Of a stretch of DNA of 64,000 bases, positions 21,053-38,147 are shown piece after piece. The position numbers and the translations under genes are program-made. Source of the stretch: Deltaproteobacteria bacterium (GTDB lineage Bacteria; Desulfobacterota; Desulfomonilia; UBA1062); NCBI GenBank assembly GCA_015486075.1, contig WFSG01000032.1, positions 77,794 to 141,793 of the forward strand. Reading direction: 5' to 3'. The notes under the pieces were generated by a model. It saw only the letters and a program-made list of their open reading frames with translations. It was not told where the DNA came from and ran no database searches. Positions within the stretch are counted from its first letter, which is position 1. Each line of letters begins with the position of its first letter.

Positions 21053-21373
21053 ATGTTTGGCATAGGTGGGCAGGAGCTGCTGTTAATCCTTATACTAGGG
21101 CTTATTATACTAGGTCCAAAGAGATTGCCAGAGCTTGCCCGTTTCCTGGGTAAGGCCATGGGTGAATTGCAAAGGACTGCAGATCAGATAAAGAGAGATA
21201 TTGATGTCACTATTGAACCTGATGACAAGGGCACAAATCATGATGCCTTGGATCTTGAGGCTAGCGAAGGCTCTAGTAACGGGAAACATAGCCAAAATTT
21301 AAGTGGAGCCACTGTTGGGTCCTCTGGAAGCGATAGAGGTGACGCCTATAACCCTGATGACATAGAGGTCTGA
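21053..21373 (+). CDS. tatA: Twin-arginine translocase TatA/TatB family protein
   Basis: The 106-residue protein has one N-terminal membrane helix (about 6-22, QELLLILILGLIILGPKRLPELAR), the Tat hinge FGP-like GPKRLPE and an amphipathic helix (LGKAMGELQRTADQIKRDID), followed by a polar tail. TatA/B proteins form the channel or receptor for folded proteins with twin-arginine signals. TatA versus TatB cannot be settled by eye. The annotated start MFGIGGQE is typical of the family; an upstream TTG would lie within the promoter. It sits 3 bp before tatC and close to the Tat-dependent formate dehydrogenase. Confidence 0.9.
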   Translation: MFGIGGQELLLILILGLIILGPKRLPELARFLGKAMGELQRTADQIKRDIDVTIEPDDKGTNHDALDLEASEGSSNGKHSQNLSGATVGSSGSDRGDAYNPDDIEV

Positions 21374-23058: not shown

Positions 23059-26000
23059 ATGGACATAAGCAGGCGCGGTTTCTTAAAGCTTACGGGTGGT
23101 ACTTTGGCGGCAACAGGCATAGGTGTAGGCGTTGGTATCCATCCTGTGTTTGCGCAGCCTAGGAAGCTGCGCTACGCAAAGGAGGTGCCATCTATCTGCC
23201 CATATTGCGCGGTTGGATGTGGAGTTATCGTCCATGTAAGGGAGGGCAGGGTGATAAATGCCGAGGGAGATCCAGATCACCCTATAAGTAATGGATCGCT
23301 TTGTTCCAAGGGAAGTGCCCTGTATCAGATTGCAAACAACAAGAGGCGTCTCAAGAAACCGCTTTACAGGGCCCCGGGTGCCAGTACTTGGAAACAGGTA
23401 ACCTGGGACTGGGCGCTGGACAGGATTGCAAACAAGGTTAAGGAAGCTAGGGACAAAGGTTTTACTCACAAGAATGCTAAGGGCCAGGTAGTAAACAGGG
23501 TTGAGAACATAGCTTGCCTGGGTGGTGCATCCCTTGACAATGAAGAAGTCTATCCCCTGGTAAAATTTGCCCGTGCACTAGGCCTGGTGTATATAGAGCA
23601 CCAGGCGCGTATCTGACATAGCTCCACGGTCGCCGGTCTGGCGAACTCATTCGGTCGCGGGGCAATGACCAACCATTGGATAGATATCAAGCATTCAGAT
23701 TGCATAATGATAATTGGTTCCAATGCTGCAGAAAACCACCCTGTTTCCTTCAAGTGGGTCAATGAAGCAAGGGCTAAACGCGGTGCAAAACTGATATGCG
23801 TTGATCCGAGGTTTACACGTACCGCTGCAACTGCTGATTATTATTGTCCGATAAGGTCAGGCACGGACATAGCCTTTATAGGTGGCATGATAAATTATGC
23901 TATTGAGCATAACAGGATACACTGGGACTACGTTAGGAACTATACCAACGCATCGTTCCTTGTTGATCCCAGGTTCAAGACGGCCACGGATCTGGATGGG
24001 ATATTTTCAGGACTTGAAGATGGTAAATACAATAAGAAAACATGGCAGTATCAGCTTGATGAAAACGGTAACCCCAAAAGAGATCCTACACTTAGTGACC
24101 CACACTGCGTGTTTCAGCTCCTGAAACGGCATTATTCTCGCTATAATATCGAACACGTCTCAAACGTAGTAGGTTGTGGTGACCCCAAGGCCTATGAGAG
24201 GGTGTGCGATCTCTTTACTTCTACCTGCAAGCCAGAGAAGTCAGCCACGATAATGTATGCCATGGGTTCAACACAGCACACATACGGATCACAGAATGTT
24301 AGGGTATACGCCATTCTCCAGCTGCTTTTGGGTAACATAGGAGTTGCGGGCGGTGGGATTAATGCCTTGAGGGGAGAAAGCAATGTTCAGGGTTCTACCG
24401 ACCACGCAGCCCTTTTCCACATATTACCAGGATATCTTAAGACTCCAAAGGCTTCTCAGCAGACCTACCAGAGGTATCTGGAGGATTGTACCCCTGTAAC
24501 CCATGATCCTAAGAGTGCAAACTGGTGGGCTAATTATCCCAAGTATGCATCAAGCCTGCTGAAGGCCTTCTGGAGGGACGTTGATCTTGAAGAGGCATAT
24601 GGCTATCTTGGAAAGATAGACGATGGCAAGAACTATTCATTTATTCCCATATTTGAACGAATGGCACATGGCGAGATAAATGGGCTATTCTGCTGGGGCC
24701 AGAACCCCGCTGTTGGCGGTCCGAGTTCGCGGTTGGAAAGAAGGGCCCTTGCCAAACTGGACTGGCTGGTAGTAGTTGACCTATGGGAGACCGAGACAGC
24801 AAGTTTCTGGCAAAAGGATGCAGGGGTGGACCCAAGCGTAATAGAAACGGAGGTATTCCTGCTTCCAGCTGCAGCATCTGTAGAGAAAGAGGGATCCATA
24901 TCAAACTCTGGCAGGTGGGCACAGTGGAGGTACAAGGCAATTGACCCACCAGGCGATGCCAAGGATGATCTCTCTATTATCACTGAACTTGTATACAGGC
25001 TAAAGGATCTTTACAGGACCAAAGGCGGTGCACTTCCAAAGAGCATACTTAACTTAAGCTGGGATTACGGTCTCAAGGACGTGGATGGCAGGATACATCA
25101 TCCATCTACAAGAGAGGTCGCGAAGGAGATAAATGGGTTCTTCCTCAAGGACAAGATTGTAAAGGGGAAGCTATTCAAGGCAGGGTCCATGGTACCGAGC
25201 TTTGCATACCTTCAGGAAGACGGATCTACCTGCAGTGGGAACTGGCTGTACTGTAACTCAGTGTCCGACACAGAAAACAAGATGATGAGAAGGAGCACCT
25301 CTGATCCAAGAGGCCTAGGCTTTTACCACGAGTGGTCGTGGTGTTGGCCTGTAAACCGGAGGATACTTTACAACCGGGCCAGCGTGGATGATAAGGGAAG
25401 ACCATGGGCAAACGATAAACCAGTTATATGGTGGGATAGAATAGCAAAAAAATGGCAGGGGGATGTCCCTGATGGTGGATGGCCACCTGGAACAAAATAT
25501 CCTTTCATAATGCTTCCTCATGGTCATGCAAGGCTTTTTGCCCCAGGTCTTGCAGACGGTCCCTTCCCCGAGCATTATGAGCCACTTGAATCCCCTGTAA
25601 AGAACTTCATGTCTTCTCAACAGGTATCACCTGTCATTGTACGTTGGGATAAGCTGACACACAGAGAGATAACATGTGACCCCATGGTTGTGGAAGGTTG
25701 TGTTGCGGCTCTCTACGGCACCGAGGCAGCTAAGCGTTTTCCGATCATTTGTACAACCTACCGCCTGACCGAACACTGGCAGACTGGCCAGATGACAAGG
25801 TGGCTACCCTGGTTGTGCGAGCTGATGCCTGCCCTCTTTGTGGAGATGAGTGAAGAACTTGCTAAGATTAAGGGTATAAAAAACGGGGATAAGGTTAGGA
25901 TTAGTTCCATAAGAAATCAAGAGGGTATCGTGGCGTACGCGCTTGTTACCAAGAGGTTCAGACCTTATAAAATACAGGGTAACTTGTATCACCAGATTGG

Positions 26001-26142
26001 CCTTCCTTGGCATTTCGGTTACAAGGGGTTGATTAAAGGGGCCATTGCCAATGATTTGACCCCGTTTGTGGGAGACGCAAACACGATGATACCGGAGTAT
26101 AAGGCATTCCTAGTGAATGTAAACAAGGTACAGGGAGAGTAA
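23059..26142 (+). CDS. fdnG: Formate dehydrogenase catalytic subunit, selenocysteine-containing, Tat-exported
   Basis: Read through the TGA at 23614-23616, this is one frame of 1027 residues. The N-terminus has a twin-arginine signal, SRRGFLK at residues 4-10. The iron-sulfur motif CPYCAVGCGVIVHV with a later GSLCSKG follows. The catalytic residue is selenocysteine 186, within ARI-Sec-HSSTVAGLANSFGRGAMTNHW, aligned to the E. coli FdnG motif. A SECIS hairpin lies directly downstream (see 23614-23654). The rest shows the molybdopterin guanine dinucleotide-binding fold of the DMSO reductase family. It oxidises formate to CO2 in the periplasm and passes electrons through FdnH and FdnI to quinones. 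The start at 23059 has AGGAG upstream. A naive caller would split it into two ORFs. Confidence 0.96.
23614..23654 (+). promoter_or_regulatory. UGA codon and bacterial SECIS element in fdnG
   Basis: The TGA at 23614-23616 is followed, after 18 nt, by apical loop GGTCT (23635-23639) between CGCC (23631-23634) and GGCG (23640-23643). This is the same distance and the same loop as in the E. coli fdhF SECIS that SelB recognises. It supports selenocysteine decoding rather than a stop. Confidence 0.9.
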
Positions 26143-34474: not shown

Positions 34475-36001
34475 CTAATAATGATCAGTTCTGATACCCA
34501 TAAGCCATGCACATGTGAAGTATATTAAGGCTCCACCAAGGATAGACGCGACTAGGAATGAAAGACTAGCAATGGTTAATCCCTTCTTCCAGAAATGGAC
34601 ATGCACAGCTGGTATTAGGCATATGAGCATAATTATTCCTGATATAGACATCTTTGCCAGTCTAATGTATGAACTTGCCGAGATGACGACTCCTCTTCTG
34701 TGTAGGAGGTATTGAAGGATAGCAACCTGTATTACAACTGATAGAGATGTGGCAAGTGCCAGTCCAACATGCCCCATGTATGGCATCAGCGCGAGACTCA
34801 ACACAAGGTTAATACCAAGGGTAATCCAAGCCACCTTGACCGCTGTACCCGCGTTTTGCATGGCATAAAACGCCTGGGTGAGTATTCTTGATATACCTAT
34901 TGCCCACAGACCAAGGGCATACATCCTTAAGGCCTTTGCAGTAAGTAGGGCGTCGACCTGTTGGAATTCTCCCCTTACAAAGAGGAGTGATACTATGGGT
35001 TCGGCTAGGACAAAAAGTCCAATGGATGAAGGGACAGTGAAAAAAAGTATGGTGTCAGTTGCCTTTTCCACAAGGCTAGACATCTCCTTCATCTCAACCC
35101 TGGCAGATGCCTGGCTCATCACTGGGAGCATGACATTACCCACGGCAAAGGCAAATATACCGAGTGGCAGTTCTACTAACCTGTTAGCATAGTAAAGGTA
35201 GGACACGCTCCCACGAGGAAGGAAAGATGCAAGGATCGTCCCAGTAAGTACGTTTATCTGGTATACAGAGGCTCCTATAGCTGCTATACCCATGAGTTTT
35301 AGGACCTGCTTTACCCTATTGTCCATGAAATTAAAGGAGGGTCTTATGGGTACCTTGTGCGATCTTAAGGGGCCTAGTTGTAGTACTATTTGCATAAGTC
35401 CGCCCAAGAGCACTGACCATGCAAGTGCATCCGCAGCCGTTTTAAAGAAGGGTAAAAGTATATAGAAGAAGATAGGGATGCCTATCATGGAGATGTTCAG
35501 TAGTATTGGGGCTGCTGCCGGTGCAGCAAAGTGCCCAAGTGAGTTAAGTATACCCATGAATATAGCCACGATGCTTACAAGTAGTATGTAAGGAAACATG
35601 ATCCTGGTAAGGTGCAGGGCAACGTTGAATGTATTCGTGTTGACAAAACCCGGGGCTATGGCGGTTACTATGGCAGGGCTTATTATCTCGCCGGTTATGA
35701 CTATAAGTCCTAGGGTAATAACCATGAGTGTTAAGATCTTTCTGGACAGAAGAAAAGCCCTATCCATGCCTTCCTTCTCCATAGTCTCGTTGAATACGGG
35801 TACAAATGCTACGTTGGTTGCGCCTTCTGCGAGTAACCTTCGAAGGAGGTTCGGAATCCTGAAGGCCACGAAGAATGCGTCTGCTATTGGTCCTGCACCT
35901 ATAAGCCAGGCAATTACCGCGTCTCTTAAGAATCCTAGACCTCTGCTGAAGGCCGTAAGTGTTCCCACCAGGGCTATGTTTTTATTGACCTTATGATTCA
36001 T
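34475..36001 (-). CDS. murJ: Lipid II flippase MurJ (MviN)
   Basis: The 508-residue polytopic membrane protein has about 14 helices, the MurJ pattern. The N-terminal conserved block SRGLGFLRDAVIAWLIGAGPIADAFFVAFRIPNLLRRLLAEGATNVAFVPVF holds the Arg/Asp/Glu residues of the transport cavity. Further motifs are LRMYALGLWAIGISRILTQAFYAMQNAGT. MurJ flips lipid II across the inner membrane for peptidoglycan synthesis. It lies 18 bp after the DUF1573 gene on the same strand. Confidence 0.95.
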   Translation of the reverse strand: MNHKVNKNIALVGTLTAFSRGLGFLRDAVIAWLIGAGPIADAFFVAFRIPNLLRRLLAEGATNVAFVPVFNETMEKEGMDRAFLLSRKILTLMVITLGLIVITGEIISPAIVTAIAPGFVNTNTFNVALHLTRIMFPYILLVSIVAIFMGILNSLGHFAAPAAAPILLNISMIGIPIFFYILLPFFKTAADALAWSVLLGGLMQIVLQLGPLRSHKVPIRPSFNFMDNRVKQVLKLMGIAAIGASVYQINVLTGTILASFLPRGSVSYLYYANRLVELPLGIFAFAVGNVMLPVMSQASARVEMKEMSSLVEKATDTILFFTVPSSIGLFVLAEPIVSLLFVRGEFQQVDALLTAKALRMYALGLWAIGISRILTQAFYAMQNAGTAVKVAWITLGINLVLSLALMPYMGHVGLALATSLSVVIQVAILQYLLHRRGVVISASSYIRLAKMSISGIIMLICLIPAVHVHFWKKGLTIASLSFLVASILGGALIYFTCAWLMGIRTDHY

Positions 36002-36019: not shown

Positions 36020-36733
36020 CTAGTTTATATTTCTCTGCACATGTGCATAGATGTGCACCACAACCTTTGAAGGATAATCTAAGTCCGTTTTGAAGACCGC
36101 TGCCCCGTAAATGAAGCCGTTCTTTACCAACTTTGGTTTGAATGTAAGCGTAAAGGTCTTTATACCACCTGGAGAAAGTACAAAGGGTCCTACATGGTTC
36201 AATTCTATTTGCGTGAAGGGGGTGATTGTCATATTGGTTACTTGTATCGTTTTCTTGCCTTTGTTCAGAAGTGTTATTGTCTTTTTATATTCCTCACCTT
36301 CAAGGACCGTCCCAAAGTTGATATACTTAGGGTTTACAACCAGGGTCTCGATGACCTTCATGCTTATACGTAGACTTATATCCTTTGCCGAGGGATCATT
36401 TGTGTGGACATGAATAACCTTTCTTAGAATTCCCTTTCTGTTCCTTGTTGAGACCTTAACCCTTATCCTTGTGTATTTCCCACTTGCTATTACATGCCCT
36501 CCCGGGACATCTATGGAGACTCCTCATGTATGTCCAATATCAAGGATGAGTGGTTTGTCACCTGTGTTCTTGATAGTAAACTCGTGAATTACGACCTTAC
36601 CCTGGGGGATGATGCCTGCGTAGAAGTCTCTGTGATGGATGACGGCATGTGGAGCAGCAGACGCGATGGTAGCCAAAAATAGAAATAGAAGAGACAAGGT
36701 AAAGCATATTGTGTAACCTTTTCTGTAAACCAT
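36020..36733 (-). CDS. Secreted DUF1573 protein with in-frame TGA (candidate selenoprotein)
   Basis: From the ATG at 36733 (GGAGGTG five bases upstream) the frame is continuous to 36020 except for one TGA at 36526-36524. Read as selenocysteine, this gives 237 residues. It has a signal peptide (about 1-27), then two Ig-like DUF1573/ASH domains: the first with GKVVIHEFTIKNTGDKPLILDIGHT-Sec70-GVSIDVPGG and later VHTNDPSAKD, and the second starting near VVNPKYINFGTVLEGEEY. Sec70-Gly-Val falls where the family has Cys-Gly-Cys, so the TGA sits at the first cysteine. A hairpin 20 nt downstream fits a bacterial SECIS. The downstream half has no ribosome site of its own. The alternative is a nonsense-mutated pseudogene. 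Confidence 0.62.
36494..36526 (-). promoter_or_regulatory. Candidate SECIS element in the DUF1573 gene
   Basis: Twenty nucleotides after the TGA (36526-36524) the minus strand can fold ATG (36510-36508), bulged T507, CCC (36506-36504), loop GGGA (36503-36500), GGG (36499-36497) and CAT (36496-36494). A bulged U below a loop starting with GG matches known bacterial SECIS features. The stem is short. Confidence 0.55.
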
Positions 36734-37001
36734 GCGAACACCTCCATACATAACATGGTATATCTGGATTATTATGTATTCCGCGATTGTTTGTCAAAGT
36801 ATTAAAATGTGTTGCTATTGAACAAAGGTCGTTTTGTTATTACTTGAAGGCTGGATTAAATGTTTTTTTATTTTTTTTATATCGAGAGTTTTATCCTTAA
36901 CACGATTTGCCGTATAGTTCTTAAGATACACCCTGAAGCTAGGACAGACAATGGGAGGATATGGTTGACTTTTCTTTGCCTAGATAATACTCTATGTCTC
37001 C

Positions 37002-38147
37002 ATGAGAGGTAAGCTTGAATATCCAAGCGGGCTGATAGAGCTGGTATCGGTAGAAGTGGAGATGATTGATCCTGAATACAGGGAATTATGGCTCGGATAT
37101 AACTACACTTGCCCGGGTGGTGAGTACAAGTCGACCATGGTAATACCCATTACTGATTCAGTTGGCATGGCTCATCATTTCTTCGAAGAGCTGGTGGAAG
37201 AAGCTAGGCGTTTGTCAGAGATAGACGGAGGATATTCAGAAGGTCCGGGCTTTTTCCTTTCGAACAAGTCAGGTACGTTTTTCCTGATAAAGAATCTATG
37301 CCAGCAGGTAATAAATGTTCTCTCAATGGAGGGTCCATTGGAAGAAAATAGACTTTACATTGACCTAAGCACAACAGGTATACATTTCAAGGACCCAGCC
37401 AAGAGCCTAACTGGAATGGACTTTGATCAAAGGCTCAAGGTCTTTATGACAAGGGCAAAGGAAAAGATATCTCAGGGGTTTTATACTCTGGCTGCAGATG
37501 ACCTTGAGAAGGCAAGGGCACTATGTTCTAACAGCCCGATAGTTTATAAGTTGCTTGGTATCTGTCACAGGGAGCTAGGTCACCTAGATCTTGCCTTGGA
37601 GATGTTCTCAAAGGCCATGGACATAGATGACAGGGATAAGGACACGTTTCTTTACCTGGAAGAAACAGGATTTTTCCTGGATGACATGGAGTTTTGCGAG
37701 AATATACTGGAAGAGATGCTAAGCCTGTATCCTGATGATATAAGGGGGCTTGTAGAGCTCGCTAATGTAAGGTACCAGATGGGTAGGGATTACGTGGATA
37801 TACTGGACAAGGCATTTTCTATTGATAGCAAGGAGACAAAAGAGGTTATCCTGCAGACCTTTGTCTTCAAGCGTTCCAAGAGCCATAACCCCGATCCAAA
37901 GTTGATTTCAGCTAGGGATGTCTCGACCATAATGGGTGTGTCCCTTGAGACTATCAAGGGCCTTGTGAAGTTGAACAGAATACCTTCAAGGGAGACAGAG
38001 GAAAGAAGTGGTTTTGTGTTTGATGAGGATGAGCTCAAGGCTTGGATTGACGTGTACACTAGATATGGGCTAATGGACAATGAGATCGAAAGAGCTACAG
38101 ATAAATTCAACGGGAATTCAGATCAAGGCATGGCTCTTCTCACCTGA
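37002..38147 (+). CDS. TPR protein with C-terminal excisionase/MerR-type HTH
   Basis: This 381-residue protein has no signal peptide. The first 130 residues match no family known to me. TPR-like helices (about 145-285: KISQGFYTLAADDLEKARALC, YKLLGICHRELGHLDLALEMFSKAM) follow. The C-terminus holds a DNA-binding-like helix-turn-helix SARDVSTIMGVSLETIKGLVKLNRIPSR and FDEDELKAWIDVYTRYG, similar to MerR/excisionase 'HTH_17' modules. No Shine-Dalgarno precedes the ATG, but an in-frame stop lies shortly upstream. Its end overlaps the next gene by 68 nt. Function unknown; a scaffold linking protein contacts to DNA is inference. Confidence 0.75.
   Translation: MRGKLEYPSGLIELVSVEVEMIDPEYRELWLGYNYTCPGGEYKSTMVIPITDSVGMAHHFFEELVEEARRLSEIDGGYSEGPGFFLSNKSGTFFLIKNLCQQVINVLSMEGPLEENRLYIDLSTTGIHFKDPAKSLTGMDFDQRLKVFMTRAKEKISQGFYTLAADDLEKARALCSNSPIVYKLLGICHRELGHLDLALEMFSKAMDIDDRDKDTFLYLEETGFFLDDMEFCENILEEMLSLYPDDIRGLVELANVRYQMGRDYVDILDKAFSIDSKETKEVILQTFVFKRSKSHNPDPKLISARDVSTIMGVSLETIKGLVKLNRIPSRETEERSGFVFDEDELKAWIDVYTRYGLMDNEIERATDKFNGNSDQGMALLT

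Follow-up and report, generated by a model that had tools for sequence, protein, structure and literature searches.

A DUF1573 gene beside murJ that almost certainly encodes a selenoprotein, and the apparently new subfamily to which it belongs

Does an in-frame TGA in an exported DUF1573 protein end the protein, mark a broken gene, or specify selenocysteine (Sec)? The question arises in the 64,000-nucleotide stretch of DNA analyzed here, which we call the window, from a deltaproteobacterium. The first-pass annotation had described a 714-nt frame on the reverse strand (36733 to 36020) that is open except for one TGA at 36526-36524, and had proposed that this codon encodes Sec, as Sec-Gly-Val, at the first Cys of the family's Cys-Gly-Cys. 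Translation with TGA read as U gives exactly such a frame, with a single TGA in the context IGHT-U-GVSI. In an alignment with Cys-form DUF1573 homologues, the column of residue 70 holds the first Cys of their CGC, as the annotation had asked to be checked. From the comparisons below, we regard the status of the gene as a selenoprotein gene as near certain, and it is very likely both that the TGA directs Sec insertion and that the protein belongs in a separate subfamily.

The gene and its predicted product

With the TGA read as Sec, the protein passes the Pfam gathering cut-off for DUF1573 (PF07610; 59.4 versus 26.1 bits), the first Ig-like domain being the DUF1573 match, and it also matches the related HYDIN/VesB Ig family. 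The structure model (pLDDT 93.3, pTM 0.75) contains two Ig-like domains and places Sec70 in a loop between strands 62-66 and 72-75. Together with the signal-peptide-like helix, it agrees with the earlier description of an exported two-domain Ig-like DUF1573 protein. The product is predicted to be exported via its predicted signal peptide, with Sec70 in a first-domain loop. Within the predicted mature part, Sec70 is the sole Cys or Sec residue; the homologue in a same-genus relative (G001, MAG B14_G9, contig QMLJ01000002) has one distant Cys there. Features of the locus are collected in Table 1.

Table 1. Features of the locus and of the known selenoprotein gene in the window
Feature	Position	Strand	Details and basis
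DUF1573 selenoprotein gene (near certain)	36020..36733	-	714 nt; 237 aa with Sec70; stop TAG
In-frame TGA, read as Sec70	36524..36526	-	same TGA in 26 homologous copies from 24 genomes
Putative bacterial SECIS hairpin	36494..36510	-	stem +17..+22 with +28..+33 (T of TGA = 1), 6 bp, loop CGGGA; covariation and bSECIS model
Ribosome-binding site GGAGG	36741..36745	-	7 nt before ATG; direct reading of sequence
Predicted signal peptide	36655..36733	-	approx. residues 1-26, ending ASA-A; sequence reading, helix 2-23 in structure model
murJ (lipid II flippase)	34475..36001	-	18 nt downstream; neighbor kept in 23/24 genomes
Divergent TPR-repeat protein	37002..38147	+	neighbor kept in most of the 24 genomes
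fdnG (formate dehydrogenase-N alpha subunit)	23062..26142	+	known selenoprotein; Sec codon 23614-23616, at the expected place; TIGR01553, 1310 bits

Conservation of the TGA and of a hairpin behind it

To collect homologues, 60 relatives were searched at the protein level, and 24 genomes of the same bacterial family were scanned with a profile. All 24 genomes contain a homologue with one in-frame TGA at the position of codon 70, and none of the orthologues at the murJ locus has a Cys codon in its place. Of the 24 genomes, 23 have murJ immediately after the gene, and the same divergent TPR gene usually flanks the gene on the upstream side; the other DUF1573 paralogues checked never occupy this place. 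The exception is one genome (G002), whose extra copies bring the total to 26: two tandem genes of the same type (G002:C96, L010 / L142) sit away from murJ, and a third (L056) is cut off by the end of a different contig. Selection does not stop at the TGA. When the window gene is compared with that of its same-genus relative, dN/dS comes to about 0.17 before the codon (dN 0.155, dS 0.89) and about 0.13 after it (dN 0.132, dS 1.05), and the downstream part is therefore under coding selection. This persistence and the shared TGA sustain the earlier reading that the downstream frame is intact rather than decayed.

Behind the TGA, all 26 copies have a hairpin that fits the bacterial SECIS model; the one in the window has a UGA-to-loop distance of 19 nt and a local minimum free energy (MFE) of -9.9 kcal/mol, and conforms to the published bSECIS constraints (PMC13188914). 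Across the copies, 94.0% of stem cells are paired, versus 30-63% (maximum 62.7%) with the partner shifted along the sequence. At four of the six stem pairs both sides have changed; double-change cells number 13, compared with 3.6 in shuffles, and none of 500 shuffles reached the covariation score of the hairpin. The window holds a single instance of the combined TGA and SECIS pattern, where shuffles predict 0.00. The loop includes a Pro codon, CCG, whose third base is invariant in all 26 copies, while CCG makes up 11% of the Pro codons in the window. Since the Pro-Gly-Gly motif encoded here is missing in four Cys-type paralogues, the protein probably keeps it because of the RNA signal. The exact register is uncertain: the MFE fold of the window sequence adopts a neighboring one, in which a U is bulged and the loop is GGGA, and this weighs against the counted register, whereas A at position 30 in three sequences favors it. 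Like E. coli-type SECIS elements (fdhF/fdnG), this is a coding-region hairpin 16-37 nt from the UGA with G in the first two loop positions; it differs in having a sequence of its own, and an Rfam search at gathering thresholds returned no hit anywhere in the window.

The genome of the window also has what Sec insertion requires, with tRNA-Sec (77 bits, anticodon tca), SelA, SelB, and SelD all over their cut-offs. Use of Sec through fdnG, noted earlier, is borne out by that gene's Sec codon, and SelD itself has an in-frame TGA (GGGUGTK; G000:C41:95950-96858, L143). The marks of a bacterial selenoprotein are thus present: a UGA kept among homologues and aligned with Cys elsewhere, and the SelA, SelB, SelD, and tRNA-Sec machinery. 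SelA was found in 17 of the 24 family genomes; its absence from searches of the other seven, three of them near-complete, counts against our explanation, and each of those seven has tRNA-Sec and/or SelB. On the comparative evidence, SelB with Sec-tRNA(Sec) would bind the hairpin 19 nt past the UGA, and the ribosome would insert Sec at residue 70 rather than terminate.

Error, decay, reassignment of the code, and two separate proteins were each considered and rejected on the conserved TGA, the selection, the hairpin, and the alignment with Cys. A lone in-frame stop does have the look of a nonsense mutation, and a misread base or a true stop in a decaying gene would produce one. Such an accident is exceedingly improbable when 24 independently assembled genomes share the same TGA, with low dN/dS on both sides of it, a covarying hairpin, and zero frameshifts. 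It is just as improbable that this lineage has a changed code in which TGA means an ordinary amino acid (Trp or Gly): that would account for an in-frame TGA, but TGA serves as an ordinary stop in the window, ending 7 of its 24 long open reading frames and the tatA/tatB gene before tatC at 21371, and here it is aligned with Cys in a genome whose tRNA-Sec has the anticodon tca. Only slightly less remote is a short first-domain product that stops at the TGA while an internal start or nonspecific readthrough supplies the second half. An ATG at 36361 does open a frame of 113 aa, but direct reading finds no Shine-Dalgarno-like sequence before it, as the first-pass annotation had said of the downstream part; in addition, the first Ig domain's strands in the model continue across residue 70, the codons right after the TGA are kept under SECIS constraint, and the Cys homologues are continuous.

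A scan for the exact TGA plus SECIS pattern, using one genome per species from 84,980 species and blind to stricter or looser SECIS forms, returned 25 stretches, of which 21 were this gene. All 21 come from uncultured assemblies labeled 'Deltaproteobacteria', Thermodesulfobacteriota, or Syntrophaceae, on contigs matching the family genomes. The four other matches, in Xanthomonas, Prevotella, Azospirillum, and Thermoplasmatota, were dismissed as chance, having short frames whose translations lack DUF1573 homology.

A subfamily apart from the known UGC type

The earlier proposal that a DUF1573 selenoprotein would be new fails at the level of the family, because OS_HP2, with the motif UGC, was reported in 2007-2008; the reading as a selenoprotein gene stands, and novelty shrinks to a subfamily. 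OS_HP2 was reportedly first described from an Olavius algarvensis symbiont by Zhang and Gladyshev in 2007. It was covered in the GOS survey (PMC2398784), is listed as a selenoprotein, 'DUF1573 domain-containing protein, UGC' (PMC2398784, PMC9312934, PMC13188914), and has the NCBIfam model NF041425. The two groups share the DUF1573 domain, the Sec column, export, and an occurrence in Desulfobacterota-type bacteria, and some family genomes carry UGC-type proteins besides the type found here.

What separates them is motif, descent, SECIS sequence, and the place beside murJ, which only the subfamily of the window occupies. U-G-V/A is present in all 26 copies, nearly always as P-C-U-G-V/A and as H-T-U-G-V in the window protein and its same-genus relative, so that the window protein has U-G-V and lacks the U-G-C of NF041425. 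In a maximum-likelihood tree, the CUG type and four nested Cys-type paralogues form a clade with 100/100 support, separate from the UGC-type selenoproteins. The window protein (63.5 bits) and five relatives (57-81 bits) fall below the NF041425 cut-off of 100 bits, which both UGC-type members tested pass (131 and 107 bits). A literature search, with thin coverage of subscription journals, turned up no account of the CUG/TUG subfamily. With a known UGC sister group, the window protein is therefore a variant rather than a new kind of selenoprotein, and the apparent novelty is the subfamily marked by CUG[V/A] (TUGV in the genus of the window).

Cys-form DUF1573 proteins (PF07610) share the fold, export, and the loop, with Cys-Gly-Cys where this subfamily has Sec; they differ in having Cys for Sec, no TGA, and no Pro-Gly-Gly SECIS codons. 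Further DUF1573 proteins among 395 sampled genomes of the phylum have either CGC without a stop or a TGA, and the TGA-containing ones that we read are UGC; this shows that Cys and Sec have been exchanged repeatedly at the same site. The Sec-less paralogues nested in the CUG clade (G006, G009, and G020; L064-L067) have the patterns CESCNG, CGCGG, and CTCGG, which suggests Sec loss with rebuilding of the motif. Elsewhere, one homologue (G323:C38:11649-12305) has two in-frame TGA codons and is possibly a double selenoprotein, and homologues in two relatives of one genus (G284:C48 and G242:C153) have an in-frame TAA, through decay or otherwise.

A possible role in the envelope

Export, the Ig-like loop, and the vicinal Cys-Sec pair suggest either a redox selenol or a soft-metal ligand, and the redox or metal role proposed earlier for an exported Ig-like Sec is plausible. 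We consider an extracytoplasmic redox-active selenol the most likely role, by somewhat better than even odds. The main alternative accepts Sec and holds that this residue, joined in most relatives by the neighboring Cys, binds a periplasmic soft metal (Cu, Hg, or Cd) rather than taking part in redox catalysis. Soft metals are bound well by a vicinal Cys-Sec pair, His stands at -2 in the genus of the window, and we know of no recognizable catalytic pocket in DUF1573 Ig domains; metal-transport or resistance genes are nevertheless absent from the neighborhood, where the conserved neighbor is murJ, and metal binding seems the less probable role. A Foldseek search with the model gave generic Ig/ASH matches and no functional lead. 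The protein of unknown function 2QSV (Porphyromonas gingivalis) and the HYDIN/ASH Ig domains have the Ig-like fold in common with it, as judged from sequence profile and Foldseek, but their domain arrangement differs and no functional assignment can be transferred. To our knowledge, neither has selenocysteine.

The product is predicted to be an exported two-Ig protein with Sec in the loop where ordinary DUF1573 proteins have Cys-Gly-Cys. In most of the family, where the motif is Cys-Sec-Gly-Val/Ala, a redox-active Sec would pair with the neighboring Cys in a selenenylsulfide. In the genus of the window, that Cys is replaced by Thr, which argues against an obligatory intramolecular selenenylsulfide there; because the mature window protein has no Cys, its Sec would need a partner thiol, and any selenenylsulfide would therefore be with another molecule. 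We put forward, tentatively and at less than even confidence, that this unrecognized family-wide subfamily has Sec in an exported Ig-like loop and that the genus of the window dropped the resolving Cys, leaving a lone exported selenol that may act via a partner protein or a metal.

The finding adds a conserved selenoprotein subfamily that scores under the curated OS_HP2 model. Since the CUG type falls below its cut-off, current models probably miss these genes and annotate them as truncated. Presence throughout one bacterial family, at a fixed place before murJ, suggests a selenium-dependent function in the envelope, and the exchange of Cys-Sec for Thr-Sec in one genus offers a way to test what the neighboring Cys does.
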